DNA from: a virus
Direction: 5' to 3' (one strand)
Virus record (IMG/VR): IMGVR_UViG_3300032523_001177
Span: 1 to 28,762 of that record
DNA length: 28,762 nt
Position 1 is the first letter of the stretch. Each line of letters starts with the position of its first letter. The notes below the pieces were generated by a model. The model ran no database searches and was not told the origin of the DNA. It saw only the letters and a program-made list of their open reading frames with translations. A program made the translations under genes and the position numbers. Below are positions 3,896 through 28,414 of the stretch, in pieces.

Positions 3896-4390
3896 TTAGA
3901 CCTGGGTTAAATCAAAGTCGCCGTGAGATTCTGCCGTACAAGTCCAGCGCATATAACCGTTAACGTTCTGGGTTATCGTAAATTCAGTAACAATTGAGGG
4001 CACCGTAACCACGCCAGTATAGCCAAGCGCAACCGCATGGGTTAGCAATATTCTAACGTAATTTCCGACGTGCGGGGTGGAAGACTGGAAGGTACAAATT
4101 CCCGTCAGGGAAACCTTGCCCCGCCTAATCCCGCCGAAGGTCAATTGTTGTGGAGTGCCGAACTCCATATATCGCCGTTGGCTTCCAACCAGGTCGTCCA
4201 TTACGGGTATAAACGGGGTCAACCGGGCACCGCCCGAAGGCCACCCGGTCAATCCTCCGTAAATTGAAATATTCGTTATTTCCACCGTTGGCGCCGTAAC
4301 GGTCAACTGGTAGCTATCGCATTCAAGTTGCCGTTCAATGCCGTAAACAAGCCTTGCCACATTGCCGTATAAAGCGGGTAGCGGGTTCAT
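3896..4390 (-). CDS. Tail-associated structural protein, unknown family
   Basis: A 164-residue protein, beta-rich (many Thr, Val, Ile, Gly), with no membrane segment or catalytic motif. It lies between the putative tail-tube protein and the tail assembly chaperone, with 11- to 15-base gaps, so it belongs to the tail operon. The start MNPLPALYGN is at ATG 4390. It may be a second tube or minor tail protein. I recognise no specific family. Confidence 0.55.
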   Translation of the reverse strand: MNPLPALYGNVARLVYGIERQLECDSYQLTVTAPTVEITNISIYGGLTGWPSGGARLTPFIPVMDDLVGSQRRYMEFGTPQQLTFGGIRRGKVSLTGICTFQSSTPHVGNYVRILLTHAVALGYTGVVTVPSIVTEFTITQNVNGYMRWTCTAESHGDFDLTQV

Positions 4391-4401
4391 ATTTCACCCG
4401 C

Positions 4402-4740
4402 TTAGTAGGTGATCGAACCAGACACGTCTAGGGTAGCCTTGTCTTTCACCGCCGTTGCTGTTTTTACGCTGGTCAACAGGATCGTCTTGCTTGCGGTCGA
4501 ACCGCCGCCGACGTCGAAAATCACCGTGCCAGTTGCGCCAACCGTAGGGGCTGCGCCCGCATACGGCCCGCTGGCGCTCATTGAACCGCCAGCAATTCCG
4601 GCAATTACTTGCCGCCCGCCGCCGCTGGTAAAATTGGTCACCTCGACCTCCTCGATGGTCTGGTCAAGGCTCCAGGAATCCATCGGGTAGGCAACTCCGC
4701 CAATCGTCAAAGTGGCAAATTTGCCAGCATAATAAGGCAT
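4402..4740 (-). CDS. Putative major tail (tail tube) protein
   Basis: A 112-residue protein of the layout seen in many small phage tube proteins: a short N-terminal strand with TIGGVAYP, a W followed by an acidic EEVEVTNFTSGGGR stretch (about residues 29-43), Gly-rich loops, and Val/Thr strands to the end. Tube proteins form stacked hexameric rings around the tape measure. The position, upstream of the chaperone and tape measure genes and downstream of head-completion candidates, agrees. It is on the short side for a tube protein, so a tail-associated role other than the main tube is possible. Confidence 0.55.
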   Translation of the reverse strand: MPYYAGKFATLTIGGVAYPMDSWSLDQTIEEVEVTNFTSGGGRQVIAGIAGGSMSASGPYAGAAPTVGATGTVIFDVGGGSTASKTILLTSVKTATAVKDKATLDVSGSITY

Positions 4741-9807: not shown

Positions 9808-10275
9808 CTAAATGATCGCAGATCTAATGAGTTGTTGAATTTCTTTTAGCATTTTTTGCGGGTCAACGAATATCAAGCCCATTCGGTCGCATGCTGTTTG
9901 TGGCGTCTCGTTTTCCAACCATAGATATTCAACGAATTGCCGGGCCTCGGGCGTGAGCGTTGCCAGCGTATCGCGGGCCTCGACGGTGCTGCCGTTGGGG
10001 GCCTCAAGGCCATCGGGAAGGCCGATGGCGACGCCTTGCAAAGCCGTTTTTTTGCCGTGGCACTCCTTGTAAACTGCCCCCCAAATCCATGCCCGGGAAT
10101 AGGCTCCCAGGGTCACCCCTCGGGTTGGGTCGTATGACTTCAGCCCTGCCAGCATGCCAAGCCAACCGGCCTGCACCAGGTCATCTAGTGTGCTTTTTTT
10201 TCGGTATTTCCCGCAGAACCATCGGGCGATACTTATCACCAGTGGCCGGTATTTCAAGATTTCGGCGTCGTCCAA
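9808..10275 (-). CDS. Sigma-70 family-like factor in the head gene cluster
   Basis: A 155-residue protein. Residues 5-75 read as sigma region 2: a first helix KYRPLVISIARWF, then DDLVQAGWLGMLAGLKSYDPTRGVTLGAYSRAWIWGAV (in parts), which has the DLVQxGxxGLxxAxxxYDP core motif used for core polymerase contact and -10 recognition. The last 50 residues (LTPEARQFVEYLWL onward) resemble a reduced region 4 helix-turn-helix. The start is taken as TTG 10275, and no strong ribosome site is visible. The gene follows a strong terminator, so it must have its own transcript start or read-through. It probably directs host RNA polymerase to late structural genes; this is an inference. Confidence 0.75.
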   Translation of the reverse strand: MDDAEILKYRPLVISIARWFCGKYRKKSTLDDLVQAGWLGMLAGLKSYDPTRGVTLGAYSRAWIWGAVYKECHGKKTALQGVAIGLPDGLEAPNGSTVEARDTLATLTPEARQFVEYLWLENETPQTACDRMGLIFVDPQKMLKEIQQLIRSAII

Positions 10276-23405: not shown

Positions 23406-24533
23406 TCACGATAAAGGCATAATCAATAAAGTGTAGTCCCCTACCGTGATCAGTGTCGGCTTGTCGTCGCCGTGGTGGTGCCAACGAATTGCCAGAAAGC
23501 CCGGAAGGTTTTTAATGCCTTCTAGCAAATACTTTGCATTTATTTGCAATTCAAACGGTTTGGTTTTGTCACTTTCAGGCTCGGCCTTAACCTCGGCTTG
23601 TCCCCACCCGGTTTCTGTCTGGCACCGGAACCTGAAGCCGGTGAACAGTGGGCCCGGCTCACGCAAAAAGTTTACCTTGATTTTTGGCAAATCGCTTTTA
23701 ATTGCCGTGGCTTTTTTTACGGCGTCGCACAATGCCCCGGCGGTAATCACTACCACCGTTTTAGCGTCGGCTGCTGGCGGAAGAATTCGCATATATTCCG
23801 GGTACCGTCCGGCAACCAATAGGGTTTGAATTGTCGTCTGCTCAACCGTAAAGGACCAATTTTTCCCGGTGGTAATTTTGCAGGGGCCCGTTTTTCCGGC
23901 GGTCAATCGCTCGACCATTTGCGCGGCTTTCAACGGGATGGTGCTGGCTGTTCCGCCGTGGTTGGCCCCTACGGTGGCCAGTCTGCGGCCATCCGTTGCG
24001 ACTCCGTAAATTTCGCCACTGGTGGCGATTCCTAGGGAAACCCCGGCCATTGCGCCCCGGGCTATCTCCCTGCTTGCTGCGTGGTTGATTGTCGCCAACA
24101 CCCGGTTAAGGGTTTCGGTGTCAACCTCGATTGGCTGGCTGTCCGGCTCGGTGATTACTGTGGGGAATGTGGCTGGGTCGATCCAAGGCAATTCGTAGGC
24201 GCTGCCCTCGCTGGCGATCCGGATATTTTCGCCAGCGTCGGCCTCGATTGTGATTTGCTCGCCTGCCGTGGCAAGAATTGCCGCCAGTCGGTCAACCGGA
24301 AGCAGAATCGCGTAAGGGCCCTCCTCCACGATTTCGTATTTTTGTAGGGTAACCCTGATTCCTGATTCCAGGTCGGTGGCCTCAACGAACGGCTCGGGCC
24401 CGTCCTTGGGGTTGCAATCTCGCAACCAAACCCGCAGGCAATCGAGCTCGGGCCTGATTGTTTTTCCGGGAATTGCTGCTTGGCAATCCCTGACCGCTAG
24501 CCGTAGGCTTTCCGTGTCTAAATTTGCTCGCAT
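23406..24533 (-). CDS. dnaN: DNA polymerase III beta subunit-type sliding clamp
   Basis: 375 residues, a normal length for a bacterial beta clamp. The three-domain pattern is visible. It includes PYAILLPVDRLAAIL in domain 1, YGVATDGRRLATVGAN in domain 2 (the conserved TDG-R-LA motif), and a C-terminus ending LLIMPLS, like the MPxRL end that forms part of the partner-binding pocket. The ring holds polymerase and other proteins on DNA. The start overlaps the sigma gene stop by 16 bases, so the two are made together. No polymerase or clamp loader is present in the window, so host loader use is probable. Confidence 0.92.
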   Translation of the reverse strand: MRANLDTESLRLAVRDCQAAIPGKTIRPELDCLRVWLRDCNPKDGPEPFVEATDLESGIRVTLQKYEIVEEGPYAILLPVDRLAAILATAGEQITIEADAGENIRIASEGSAYELPWIDPATFPTVITEPDSQPIEVDTETLNRVLATINHAASREIARGAMAGVSLGIATSGEIYGVATDGRRLATVGANHGGTASTIPLKAAQMVERLTAGKTGPCKITTGKNWSFTVEQTTIQTLLVAGRYPEYMRILPPAADAKTVVVITAGALCDAVKKATAIKSDLPKIKVNFLREPGPLFTGFRFRCQTETGWGQAEVKAEPESDKTKPFELQINAKYLLEGIKNLPGFLAIRWHHHGDDKPTLITVGDYTLLIMPLS

Positions 24534-25090
24534 AACGTTGGCACCTCGTTGGTGCGGCCCGAATATCGGGCCGCAATTATTCGCAATCGTCGCAATGCTA
24601 ATTTTACCCGGCTCCGCACTGTTTCCGGAGTAATTCCGAATACCTTACCAATTTCCGTTGCTGGTTCGCCAGCGTAGTATCGGGTAAGTATTTGCCACTC
24701 ACGTATTGGCAAATGAGACAGTAAACAGCGTAGCAAATCCTTTTCTTCCTCGCTTGCTCCCTCGGGTTTGAATTCTCCAGGGGGCTCATGGATTTTGTCG
24801 ATGTCCACCGTGGTTCTGTTTTTTGGGTGGTAAACCTCCTGCCACATTTTGATTCTGGTAACGTAGAACAAGTTAAACGCGTAGGTTGAAAACGTTGCCC
24901 CTTGCCCTGGTATCCAAGTCGCCGCTGACCGGCAAAGCGATTCGAAAAGCCTGCTTTTTATTTCCTCGTGGTCAATGCGCTTGGGGAACTTCAAGCGGGT
25001 TGCAAACGAATAAGCCAACCCAATGTTTTCGGCCACCAATCGCGATTGCTCCGGGGTCAGCGTGTAATTTTGCCCGTGCTTCGAGCCCAC
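24518..25090 (-). CDS. Sigma-70 family factor
   Basis: 190 residues from GTG 25090, chosen because GAGGAGG lies 7 bases upstream; a TTG at 25111 would add seven residues. Region 2 is visible near residues 15-85: VAENIGLAYSFATRLKFP, then a DHEEIKSRLFESLCRSAATW stretch and GATFSTYAFNLFYVTRIKMWQE. Region 4 near 120-175 has LSHLPIREWQILTRYYAGEP and TEIGKVFGITPETVRSRV, a clear helix-turn-helix. Both core domains are present, so it should redirect host RNA polymerase. It overlaps the zinc-protein stop closely and the clamp start by 16 bases. Confidence 0.88.
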   Translation of the reverse strand: MGSKHGQNYTLTPEQSRLVAENIGLAYSFATRLKFPKRIDHEEIKSRLFESLCRSAATWIPGQGATFSTYAFNLFYVTRIKMWQEVYHPKNRTTVDIDKIHEPPGEFKPEGASEEEKDLLRCLLSHLPIREWQILTRYYAGEPATEIGKVFGITPETVRSRVKLALRRLRIIAARYSGRTNEVPTLCEQI

Positions 25091-25091
25091 C

Positions 25092-25853
25092 CTATCGTCC
25101 TCCTCGACCAATTCCGGATATTGCTGAGTCCAAGATTTTCCGGAACTCTCCGGGCTCGGCTTTTTTTATTGGCGTCGTTTTTTCGTTCTGGCGCTCGGTG
25201 AACGCCTTGGCTAATTTCAGTTCTTCGTGCGTCTGGCTCTGCGCTGGGTAGTTGGGATTTCGTTTGAGGTACTCCAAAATGCTTATTGGGTATCGGCCTT
25301 TTTTTGCGGGCTCGGCGTCCCACATATTTCGTATTGCCGATCCGATCCGTTGGCCGGTCGAACACTGGCACACTACTGAGGTTTCGTAATGCACTCCGTT
25401 CCTTGCCACCCAACGCCCATCCTCGACGTCGGCCAACTCGGGAAGGCCCAGCACCCACCCGATGCCCCGGCAGGTCTCGCATACGGGCCTGAGGGCGCTG
25501 GCCTCGGTGCGTTTCACCTCGGCCCGGGCTGCCGTGTCCAGGCTGGCAAGTTCTTCCCGGATTGCCTGCAAGTGGTTACTGGCGAACGCTGGAATTTCAG
25601 GGCGTTGTGCTACCCGAATTATTGCCCGGGTCAGCTGGTCGTTGGTGCGGTTTTCGGACTCAAATAAATTGCCCCAAACGCCGTAGGTCAGCCGCCAATT
25701 TTCAGACTGGCACCCGAAAAGCCTTGCGTGCAGGTCTGACCAGACCAGCTGGTGAAATTCCGGGTCAACGTAGTACCCTTGGGCCGGAAGCTTGGCACGC
25801 TTGGCCAGTTCAATCTGGAACGCCTGCGAAGTCGTGATTTCCATATCAGTCAA
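25092..25853 (-). CDS. Zinc-ribbon protein of the replication block, unknown role
   Basis: 253 residues; the start overlaps the replication initiator stop (ATGA). The N-terminal 110 residues are helical (LAKRAKLPAQGYYVDPEF onward). Cys125-x2-Cys128 and Cys162-x-Cys164 form a likely zinc ribbon, with a Gly/Trp-rich stretch between. The C-terminus is charged and helical. The slot directly after a lambda O-like initiator is where helicase loaders (lambda P, DnaC) usually sit, but no Walker A motif is present, so it would be a non-ATPase loader or accessory protein if it acts there. Confidence 0.55.
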   Translation of the reverse strand: MTDMEITTSQAFQIELAKRAKLPAQGYYVDPEFHQLVWSDLHARLFGCQSENWRLTYGVWGNLFESENRTNDQLTRAIIRVAQRPEIPAFASNHLQAIREELASLDTAARAEVKRTEASALRPVCETCRGIGWVLGLPELADVEDGRWVARNGVHYETSVVCQCSTGQRIGSAIRNMWDAEPAKKGRYPISILEYLKRNPNYPAQSQTHEELKLAKAFTERQNEKTTPIKKAEPGEFRKILDSAISGIGRGGR

Positions 25854-26899
25854 CCGCCCCGCGTGAGTGGTTCGCGTCGCAAAAGCCGCAACGTGGATTC
25901 CGGTATCGTATTCACCGTTGGAGTGAAGGCAAGGGCTATTTTTTCGGGTGGCCTCGTCACCAGCAAAACCGGGTTGCCTTCCCGTGGGGGCAAATCCATT
26001 GCCGCCCGGGTTTGTGCGTCGATTATCCGCATGCGCTCGTCGCTCGTCGGTGGTGCTTTCTGTTGCTGGCGTGGCGATTGCCTTTGCTCGGGCTCAAATA
26101 TCCCTTTCCATCCGTTTGCAATAGATTTGGCAATCGCCGATATAGCTGCCTCCGGGCCCCATTCGGTGAATTGCCTCAGCTGGGCCTCGATGGTTTTTTC
26201 CACCCATTTCGGGAATCGGCTTGCGGCTCGGTACTCAAACCATTCCACCCATGCGGCCCGGAAGCCTGGGCTATCCAGCTGGGCCGGAAGGGCCGCCGTA
26301 GCGGGCTCGTAGTCTGGCGGTTTTGGCCTCGGGGGCCTCGGGGGCTTTTTGGGTTTTGGCGGTTTTGGTGGCGGGGACTCGGCGAGGTCAAGGCCATCGA
26401 AAAAATCAACATGCCCCCCGTGGGGGGTGGGGGGGTTTGGTTCTGGTATTGGCTTTGGTATTGGTTTTGGTTTTGGTGGTTGCCTACCTTGGGTTGCTAC
26501 CCTTGGGTTGCTGACCCTAGGTTGCTGACCTTGGGTTGCTGACCTTGGGTTAGAATTGTCCATTTCGCCAGTTGCCCACCCGTTTTGAGTCCTTGCGACC
26601 ACACCTTTTACAAAATTCGGAGCATGGTCGGCCCAATCGTGAACCAATAATCGGTGAACTGGACAAACGTCCAACCACCCGCAAGCAACCAAATTTCCCA
26701 CCAGTTCGGTTGGCTCTCCCTCCCAGTCGATTCCAGCCGCAATGTCTTCGTCAGAATACTTGCCAACGGCCCCGTTTTTTGCGTTTTGAGCGGTGAAGTG
26801 CCAAAGGGCTTCCAGTACCCCAACCACGCCCCATATCGGCAGCCTTAGACGCCGTTTCAGGCGGAGAAACTTGGGGTGGGTTGTCGTGTTAATTTTCAT
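25850..26899 (-). CDS. Replication initiator, lambda O / replisome-organiser-like
   Basis: 349 residues. Residues 5-95 read as a winged-helix domain (RLPIWGVVGVLEALWHFTA, EDIAAGIDWEG, LVGNLVACGWLDV, RLLVHDWADHAP), common to phage replication initiators. Residues 110-205 are a low-complexity linker of Gln/Asn and then Pro/Lys repeats. Residues 205-270 hold LDSPGFRAAWVEWFEYRAA and AAISAIAKSIANGWKGIFEP, a C-terminal domain found in many phage replisome proteins and likely to contact the helicase or its loader. The protein would bind the origin and recruit the host replisome. The gene contains the 14-bp repeat array in its linker. Confidence 0.8.
   Translation of the reverse strand: MKINTTTHPKFLRLKRRLRLPIWGVVGVLEALWHFTAQNAKNGAVGKYSDEDIAAGIDWEGEPTELVGNLVACGWLDVCPVHRLLVHDWADHAPNFVKGVVARTQNGWATGEMDNSNPRSATQGQQPRVSNPRVATQGRQPPKPKPIPKPIPEPNPPTPHGGHVDFFDGLDLAESPPPKPPKPKKPPRPPRPKPPDYEPATAALPAQLDSPGFRAAWVEWFEYRAASRFPKWVEKTIEAQLRQFTEWGPEAAISAIAKSIANGWKGIFEPEQRQSPRQQQKAPPTSDERMRIIDAQTRAAMDLPPREGNPVLLVTRPPEKIALAFTPTVNTIPESTLRLLRREPLTRGG
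26482..26551 (-). repeat. Five tandem 14-bp repeats inside the initiator gene (origin candidate)
   Basis: On the minus strand the unit is AACCCAAGGTCAGC. Five units follow without gaps: 26551-26538 and 26537-26524 are identical, and 26523-26510, 26509-26496 and 26495-26482 each have about two changes. Fourteen is not a multiple of three, so each unit is read in a different frame, which argues for selection on DNA, not on the peptide. Lambda has its origin iterons inside gene O in the same way. Confidence 0.7.
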
Positions 26900-26940
26900 A
26901 TTGCCCCCTGATTGTCAGGGGATAGAATATAGGAACGCAT
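26896..26940 (-). CDS. 14-residue leader ORF translationally coupled to the initiator
   Basis: Encodes MRSYILSPDNQGAI from ATG 26940. GGAGGTGA (26952-26945), a full anti-Shine-Dalgarno match, lies at ideal spacing. The stop TGA overlaps the initiator ATG (ATATGA). Translation of the leader would run through and open the hairpin covering the initiator ribosome site. The peptide itself may have no function. Confidence 0.7.
   Translation of the reverse strand: MRSYILSPDNQGAI
26904..26921 (-). promoter_or_regulatory. Hairpin sequestering the initiator ribosome binding site
   Basis: CCCCTGA-CAA-TCAGGGG forms a perfect 7-bp stem with a 3-base loop, and the initiator Shine-Dalgarno AGGGGG lies in its 3' arm and flank. 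ATG follows 4 bases later. Confidence 0.7.
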
Positions 26941-26972
26941 TAGGTCACCTCCGCACCAGGTTGTCCGTGCTA

Positions 26973-27006
26973 GAAACCGGAGCGCCTTCCAGGGCCTTCC
27001 GGTTTC
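26973..27006 (-). other. Long hairpin in the initiator leader
   Basis: GAAACCGGA/TCCGGTTTC gives a perfect 9-bp stem around a 16-base loop that can form an inner GCC/GGC stem. No T run follows on the minus strand, so a terminator is unlikely. It lies between the candidate promoter and the leader ORF. Confidence 0.55.
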
Positions 27007-27045: not shown

Positions 27046-27084
27046 ATTGCGTCGCAATTGCGTCAGGATTGCGTTTTATTGCGT
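27046..27084 (+). repeat. Four phased ATTGCGT repeats
   Basis: ATTGCGT occurs at 27046-27052, 27057-27063, 27068-27074 and 27078-27084, with steps of 11, 11 and 10 bases, one helical turn each. A related inverted ACGCAAA is at 27033-27039. The array lies in the gap between the methyltransferase and initiator genes, so it is a candidate binding array for the initiator or a regulator. Confidence 0.65.
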
Positions 27085-27098
27085 CAGATTCTAATGCA

Positions 27099-28184
27099 CT
27101 AATCCGGCTCAGGCTCAAATTGTAATTCTTTTTGCCTGTCGTTTCCTTTCAAGCAATTCGGCGAAAACCACAACCGTTCACGGTTGGCGTTTAGGCTCCC
27201 CTGTTGGCCTTGGCTGCTAAATCCGCCTTGTGCCTTCCAGGCATGCACCCGCCACCCGATCCCCTCAAGCATTTCGTGCTCGCCAGAATACCCCGCCAGA
27301 ACGATTCTTAGTAAAGGATTTTTGCCGTTTTCTTGGCACCATTGCAAAACCTCGCCGGCAACGCTCCGGGAATCAACCCGGTAACATTCCTCCCGGTCAT
27401 CCGCCCCGTATGGCGGATCAAGAAAAATTCCCGTCAAGCCCAAATGAATTGTTGGCGTTTCCGTCACAACTCGCTTCCAGTCGCCGCACGCCACCCGCAC
27501 CCGCTGCAATCTCGTCCGAAGCCGCTCAAACCATCCATGAATTCCGCCTCGCCCAATTTTGCAGATTACCCCTTCTCCGCCCGAATTATTCACCCGTGGG
27601 ATCCGATACCCAACCCCTTGCTGGCAAATTCCACGCCCATTGTCACCAAGGTGAACCAGCTGTTTACAAACACCTTGCCCTTGGGTTCTAAGGTAAATTT
27701 GCTGTTTCCAAACACCTTGCCCGTCGTTTCTTGAGTTAACCAACATTCCATCCACCGAATGCCAGGGCCCCTTCCCGCTGCACCAGCCGGAACCGATCCA
27801 GCAACACAAGCCCCAGCACCACCAACCCGCCGCCTTGCAATCGTAAAAATTCGGGTCACCCATTAGCCTGTCGGCCAAACTGTCGCGCTGGCCAACTAGC
27901 CACAAATGCCTTGCGTGCAAATCGCATTCGTTCACCGGCCAATCCGCATGGTTGGCCACGCCGTCCGGATCGTTGGCCACCGCCCGCCAAAAATTGCATA
28001 GCATGCCGTCCGCATCGTTCACCGTTTCGGTCCTGCCCGGGCTTGGCCTGCCCAGCAAAACCGCACCGGAACCAAAAAACGGCTCGACGTAATTTGAAAC
28101 GTCGCCAATAGCCTCCCAAACAATTCTAGCGACCTTGGATTTTCCCCCAAAATAGGGAAATGGGGCCTTCAGCTTTTCGACCAT
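27099..28184 (-). CDS. D12-class DNA adenine N6-methyltransferase with internal repeats
   Basis: 361 residues from ATG 28184, which overlaps the preceding stop (TGATG); a GTG at 28208 would add eight residues. It has the SAM-binding FPYFGGKSKV (residues 9-18), EPFFGSGAVLLG (34-45) with NDADGMLCNFW, and the catalytic DPPY (256-259). Dam-like enzymes of this class methylate adenine, giving protection from restriction or marking DNA. Residues about 145-212 are an unusual insertion of Gly/Gln/Cys-rich repeats (GQGVWKQQIYL, GQGVCKQLVHLGD, GRGICQQGVG, GEGVICKIGRG) next to a Trp/Cys-rich stretch. The C-terminal part resumes the normal fold. Confidence 0.88.
   Translation of the reverse strand: MVEKLKAPFPYFGGKSKVARIVWEAIGDVSNYVEPFFGSGAVLLGRPSPGRTETVNDADGMLCNFWRAVANDPDGVANHADWPVNECDLHARHLWLVGQRDSLADRLMGDPNFYDCKAAGWWCWGLCCWIGSGWCSGKGPWHSVDGMLVNSRNDGQGVWKQQIYLRTQGQGVCKQLVHLGDNGRGICQQGVGYRIPRVNNSGGEGVICKIGRGGIHGWFERLRTRLQRVRVACGDWKRVVTETPTIHLGLTGIFLDPPYGADDREECYRVDSRSVAGEVLQWCQENGKNPLLRIVLAGYSGEHEMLEGIGWRVHAWKAQGGFSSQGQQGSLNANRERLWFSPNCLKGNDRQKELQFEPEPD
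27659..27722 (-). repeat. Direct repeat pair in the methyltransferase gene
   Basis: A 22-bp segment at 27659-27680 recurs at 27701-27722 with one change. The 42-base step equals 14 codons and encodes the GQGV-x-KQ units. Confidence 0.8.
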
Positions 28185-28414
28185 CACCCACCCCCACACG
28201 ATCCACACCGGGCCGCATAGGCCTTCTCACCCTCGGCTAAAACGGCCTTGGCGCTATCACGCACGTATGCACTGGCGCTCTCGGCCATCGCCGTAGCAAA
28301 CGCCCGCAACCGTCGCACCTCGGCAACTAGTTGCGCCAATTCGACCGAGGTAATTGCCCCGGGCGTTCCGGTTATTACAAGGTTTTGAATTAAGCGTAAT
28401 TCGTGTTCAGTCAT
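28184..28414 (-). CDS. Small unknown protein
   Basis: 76 residues, with ATG overlapping the previous stop (ATGA). It is a single long helical region (VELAQLVAEVRRLRAFATAM onward) that looks coiled-coil-prone, ending in a CGSCGGG tail. That tail could hold metal with Cys70 but has only a lone CxxC. No family recognised. Confidence 0.55.
   Translation of the reverse strand: MTEHELRLIQNLVITGTPGAITSVELAQLVAEVRRLRAFATAMAESASAYVRDSAKAVLAEGEKAYAARCGSCGGG

Follow-up and report, generated by a model that had tools for sequence, protein, structure and literature searches.

Short leader reading frames that gate the synthesis of replication initiators are known from plasmids and integrative elements. 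In plasmid R1 (IncFII), repA is translationally coupled to tap, a short leader ORF located ahead of it (PMC5717011), and in SGI1, where the leader S004 overlaps the rep gene and an inverted repeat lies over the rep start, an early stop codon in S004 prevents RepA expression, with leader translation being essential in cis and the leader product not acting in trans (PMC7826253). In the coat-lysis arrangement of MS2, coupling proceeds through RNA unfolding, with ribosomes on the upstream frame disrupting the structure over the downstream start (PMC12548453), and the engineered synTCE element couples translation in Escherichia coli with a 6-nt hairpin, a ribosome-binding site (RBS) and a stop-start overlap (PMC11602170).

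Here, we analysed a 28.8-kb virus contig (hereafter, the window), in which a 14-codon leader ORF precedes the gene for a replication initiator related in part to the O protein of phage lambda. The locus resembles R1 in the placement of a short leader before an initiator gene, but the initiator is unrelated, the setting is a phage rather than a plasmid, the leader is just 14 codons long and, whereas the antisense RNA CopA blocks the leader in R1, no conserved antisense promoter was found here. As in SGI1, the leader overlaps the initiator gene and an inverted repeat covers the initiator start; S004 is, however, longer, its overlap with repA spans 4 codons, and coupling was demonstrated by mutation in SGI1, whereas here we infer it. 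Upstream translation would unfold the downstream start, as in MS2, where the upstream frame is, by contrast, a full gene. The hairpin over the second ribosome site and the overlapping stop and start codons have their counterpart in synTCE, although that element is engineered, with designed hairpin and leader and with URAUG in place of AUGA. Lambda O-type initiators share with the window initiator the match of the C-terminal part to phrog_678 and the direct repeats inside the gene, but not the N-terminal part, which here belongs to phrog_9474. A comparable leader gate is not known for lambda O. In the literature searched, outside of which lie most subscription journals, no phage initiator with such a leader was found described.

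The initiator gene and its neighbourhood

The main genes of the window are on the minus strand, where the initiator gene and its neighbours are arranged as follows.

28208-27099, minus strand: D12-type adenine methyltransferase
25850-26899, minus strand: 349-aa replication initiator, matching phrog_9474 with its N-terminal and the O-like phrog_678 with its C-terminal part
26478-26551, minus strand: direct repeats within the initiator gene, 14 bp x 5.3, between its two conserved parts
25092-25853, minus strand: P2, the next gene, overlapping the initiator gene by ATGA (25853-25850), without a family match
25111-24518, minus strand: sigma factor
24533-23406, minus strand: beta-clamp protein

The first-pass annotation of this DNA regarded the initiator as lambda O-like, a view supported by the match of its C-terminal part to phrog_678 (E 3.6e-10); the first 98 residues match phrog_9474, a replication initiation protein, and no Pfam match was obtained for the initiator. 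The repeats inside the gene adjoin a stretch that is G/T-rich on the plus strand, and in the related locus L032 the corresponding position (4344-4425) is occupied by a 12-bp x 6.2 array. The in-gene repeats are a possible lambda-type origin.

The methyltransferase and the leader/initiator region are separated by a 157-nt gap. Between the methyltransferase stop codon and the first hairpin described below, 4 copies of ACGCAAT (27046-27090, minus strand) recur approximately 11 bp apart, and this helical phasing suggests a putative protein-binding array; the relatives, whose intergenic regions are short, showed no such copies there. The methyltransferase (27099-28208), which occupies the place of an unrelated conserved pre-initiator gene of the relatives, matches its family only over approximately the first 90 residues, and its middle stretch contains imperfect repeats (QGVCKQLVHLGDNGRGICQQGV). 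The window also encodes 2 separate small sigma-factor-like proteins (9808-10275 and 24518-25111), each with a counterpart in the related locus L007; one contains region 2 only (E 3e-13), whereas the other has a clear region 4 together with a weakly matching region 2, a distribution suggestive of split or duplicated sigma functions.

The leader ORF and the predicted hairpins

The region immediately preceding the initiator gene comprises the following elements, listed in the direction of transcription.

26973-27006, minus strand: hairpin 1, GAAACCGGA...UCCGGUUUC, 5' of the leader, −21 kcal/mol (predicted folding; counterparts throughout the clade)
26945-26952, minus strand: leader ribosome site GGAGGTGA
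26896-26940, minus strand: leader ORF, 14 codons and TGA, encoding MRSYILSPDNQGAI
26897-26931, minus strand: hairpin 2 outer helix, 6 pairs, 26931-26926 with 26902-26897 (RNAfold)
26904-26922, minus strand: hairpin 2 inner stem, UCCCCUGA (26922-26915), loop CAA, UCAGGGGG (26911-26904) (RNAfold, opening energy)
26904-26909, minus strand: initiator Shine-Dalgarno sequence (SD) AGGGGG, 4 nt from the ATG
26896-26899, minus strand: ATGA, leader stop TGA (26898-26896) overlapping the initiator ATG (26899-26897)

The 14-codon ORF with a perfect ribosome site reported in the first-pass annotation is present on the minus strand, and its stop codon overlaps the initiator start exactly as described; the span of 26896-26952 given for it covers the leader together with its SD, the leader itself starting at 26940. 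The leader reads ATG CGT TCC TAT ATT CTA TCC CCT GAC AAT CAG GGG GCA ATA TGA. Its ribosome site, GGAGGTGA, is complementary at 8 of 8 positions to the consensus anti-SD, which may differ from that of the host, and occurs only once in the whole window when both strands are scanned; 7 nt separate its GGAGG from the leader ATG. Dinucleotide shuffling of the 150 nt upstream produced a leader with a strong SD in 278 of 20,000 cases (1.4%) and one with the ATGA overlap in 79 of 20,000 (0.4%). By itself, the overlap is unremarkable, because ATGA is the commonest spacing among closely spaced prokaryotic genes (PMC12548453) and recurs at the junction between the initiator gene and P2.

The initiator SD was proposed to lie within a stem, and CCCCTGA-CAA-TCAGGGG is indeed found exactly at 26921-26915, 26914-26912 and 26911-26905; RNAfold lengthens the stem to 8 pairs and predicts the SD to be buried in it. 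The initiator AUG is predicted to be paired by the outer helix, which consists of A-U and G-U pairs and is weaker than the inner stem. Computed from the predicted RNA structure, opening of the initiator site (−16 to +3) costs 16.2 kcal/mol, compared to a mean of 7.7 (SD 2.4, maximum 10.3) kcal/mol for 17 other SD-bearing genes of the window, the starts of which were only crudely predicted. When the leader body is held open, as it would be by a ribosome, the computed cost drops to 3.7 kcal/mol. The segment folds better than its shuffles (p = 0.005, rising to 0.03 when the SD half is kept fixed), but the measures used for hairpin and leader were picked once the first examples had been seen, so that these p values, and those for the relatives below, are guides rather than strict tests. 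The minimum free energy (MFE) of the segment is unexceptional, with 13 to 18 of 104 background genes being as low (window, L032 and L105), and was dropped as an uninformative discriminator. No Rfam 15 family matched at the gathering score anywhere in the window.

The cassette in relatives of the window

Relatives were collected from IMG/VR. A terminase search yielded L007 and L019-L024, a search with the initiator N-terminal domain 64 loci, and a search with P2 the locus L105. Loci with a close P2 make up the cassette-bearing clade, namely, the window, the L034 group (L019, L021 and L034-L041), L032/L033, L105 and L007. The full cassette was not found in 54 more distant relatives; in L109 and L110, which carry distant P2-like genes, the initiator gene stands right behind the upstream gene, without a cassette. 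Among genome contigs, terminase alignment gave no match and the N-terminal domain retrieved 1 bacterial MAG locus, devoid of the cassette. A beta-clamp scan found no relatives and P2 had no match among phages, where the initiator retrieved only distant cyanophage proteins, the genes of which directly adjoin a full upstream gene.

Despite little sequence similarity, the members of the clade maintain the same order: a strong hairpin 1, a spacer of 21-28 nt, a start codon located 41-55 nt before the initiator, and a hairpin at the initiator SD. Hairpin 1 is present in all of them (−20 to −29 kcal/mol) and, in the relatives, is located directly behind the upstream gene. An upstream start with a strong SD is found in 3 of the 4 lineages (the window; L034/L035/L039/L041 of the L034 group; L032/L033 with L105), compared to 1 of 77 other genes, the single case being the terminase gene of L007, where the upstream start is an alternative one in frame. 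A hairpin at the initiator SD is predicted in 4 of 4 lineages, in L007 only as an alternative fold, with arms that differ between the window (UCCCCUGA/UCAGGGGG), L034 (UUGAUUCCUCC/GGAGGGAUCAA), L032 (ACCCUCC/GGAGGGU) and L105 (AAACCCUCC/GGAGGGUUU). The segment from the leader start to the initiator folds better than shuffles in each lineage (p from 0.0025 to 0.019). Holding the leader body open lowers the opening cost from 9-16 to 3.7-4.7 in 5 of 6 sequences and from 6.0 to 4.7 in L007, although the p values for opening energy are not significant in L034 (0.31), L035 (0.44) and L007 (0.72). L105 and L032 share the upstream gene and the cassette at approximately 93% and have nearly the same initiator C-terminal parts, but differ in the N-terminal domain, a pattern which indicates that in L105 the cassette stayed through an exchange of the initiator protein module. 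The identity of the cassettes within the L034 group was considered as evidence of selection and rejected, because it reaches into the flanking genes and marks recent recombination.

Other features of the window are not maintained. The distance from leader start to initiator is 41 nt in the window, 48 in L034, 52 in L032, 55 in L105 and 44 in L007, and within the clade only L007 shares the ATGA overlap of the window. The upstream frame of the L034 group continues into the initiator in the same frame, whereas the leaders of L032 and L105 are in another frame and stop 29 nt and approximately 80 nt, respectively, past the initiator start. Thus, of the 2 features proposed for comparison among relatives, the hairpin over the initiator SD recurs but the stop-start overlap does not. 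The leader peptides, MRSYILSPDNQGAI, MQELYPLDSSISTEGS (in frame), VYIHSVQLRTLRIQGGY... and MTLIYASSLQLVKEG, share nothing convincing, and a function for the peptide itself was rejected as improbable, given that the leaders vary in both sequence and frame.

Two loci display peculiarities of their own. L007 lacks a proper leader SD, with AAGG just 2 nt from the ATG, and its most stable predicted hairpin (GGUGAUGACGC/GCGUCAUCACUCC) lies over the start of the leader, leaving the initiator SD mostly free; the 3' arm is predicted to pair with the initiator SD only once the main hairpin has been opened. The 2 mutually exclusive hairpins (L007:1326-1379) share the arm GCGTCATCACTCC, one hiding the leader start and the other hiding the SD and start codon of the initiator, and might constitute a two-state RNA switch. 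In L105 (2044-2126), hairpin 2 is followed by a run of 6 T right before the initiator start, an arrangement resembling an intrinsic terminator and possibly an attenuator.

A proposed translation-dependent gate and its alternatives

The best explanation of these observations, which we regard as reasonably probable, is a translation-dependent gate on initiator synthesis. The initiator SD and start codon would be locked in the predicted hairpin, the 5' arm of which lies within the leader; ribosomes loaded at the leader would cross this arm and hold the hairpin open, and the exposed site would then be translated by the same ribosome after termination at ATGA or by a newly arriving one. Were the leader not translated, little initiator would be made. 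Reinitiation at ATGA may contribute in the window alongside the unfolding, but termination-reinitiation could not be the conserved principle, because the overlap is absent from the L034 group, L032 and L105, whereas melting of the hairpin by leader-crossing ribosomes could be. The variation of the leader peptides in sequence and frame is in keeping with translation itself being what counts, and the peptide is probably irrelevant. Hairpin 1 probably insulates the cassette from upstream translation or transcription. The interpretation is thus partly supported, with the gate, rather than the overlap or the peptide, being what the relatives retain.

Several features of the cassette could also reflect transcriptional control, with the region serving as a promoter/operator or attenuator and the hairpin as a DNA dyad or terminator. 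Hairpin 1 could terminate the preceding transcript, an AT-rich stretch follows the leader start in every lineage, phage-encoded sigma factors may recognise unlisted promoters, and the hairpin of L105 is followed by the T-run (AACCCTCC-AAATCCAA-GGAGGGTTTTTTC). However, that hairpin was not listed by the terminator scan, the T-run is absent from the window, L032, L034 and L007, and the coding strand of the window, L032 and L105 yielded no sigma-70-like promoter from hairpin 1 to the initiator, rendering this explanation unlikely; given the lack of such a promoter, the cassette is likely to be an inner part of a longer transcript or to use a phage-specific promoter. Similarly unlikely is the possibility that the upstream start is an alternative, extended start of the initiator, with the hairpin tuning the ratio of the 2 forms and the window frame having been lost by an indel to leave a relic ORF. 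In L034, L035, L039 and L041, an ATG with its own GGAGG is indeed located in frame 48 nt upstream and could simply yield an initiator longer by 16 residues, but the start is out of frame in the window, L007, L032 and L105, the window has no in-frame upstream start at all, and an SD matching at 8 of 8 positions is unlike what decay would leave.

We consider it improbable that the hairpin is primarily the site of a translational repressor, or that an antisense RNA blocks the leader in the manner of CopA, with leader translation being secondary. A sigma-70-like match on the plus strand (26901-26928, TTGCCC-16-TAGAAT) would direct antisense transcription across the leader SD, but 1.5 matches this good are expected per region by chance in shuffles and both strands of L032 and L105 gave none, while the variation of hairpin 2 loops and stems among lineages fits poorly with one shared protein site. 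Slightly less probable still is a chance coincidence, with neither the small ORF nor the GC-rich inverted repeat having any meaning: the leader is one of many short ORFs in the window and the segment MFE falls within the background range, but the leader start with its SD, the SD hairpin and hairpin 1 recur jointly across diverged lineages.

Beyond the gate itself, we tentatively envisage, as a rather doubtful extension, a clade-specific RNA cassette of hairpin 1, leader and hairpin 2 that would travel with exchangeable initiator domains and tie the onset of replication to leader translation, with the L007 version possibly acting as a two-state switch that senses ribosome loading. The comparative set separates the features that would matter (SD, start and hairpin) from those that would not (peptide, frame and overlap). 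If the gate operates as proposed, it would represent a natural parallel to the engineered element, and the coupling of initiators to leaders, known from plasmids and integrative elements, would reach phages as well. An uncultured phage group would then limit the synthesis of its lambda O-like initiator through a plasmid-style leader gate, and the onset of replication would respond to the translation capacity of the host.
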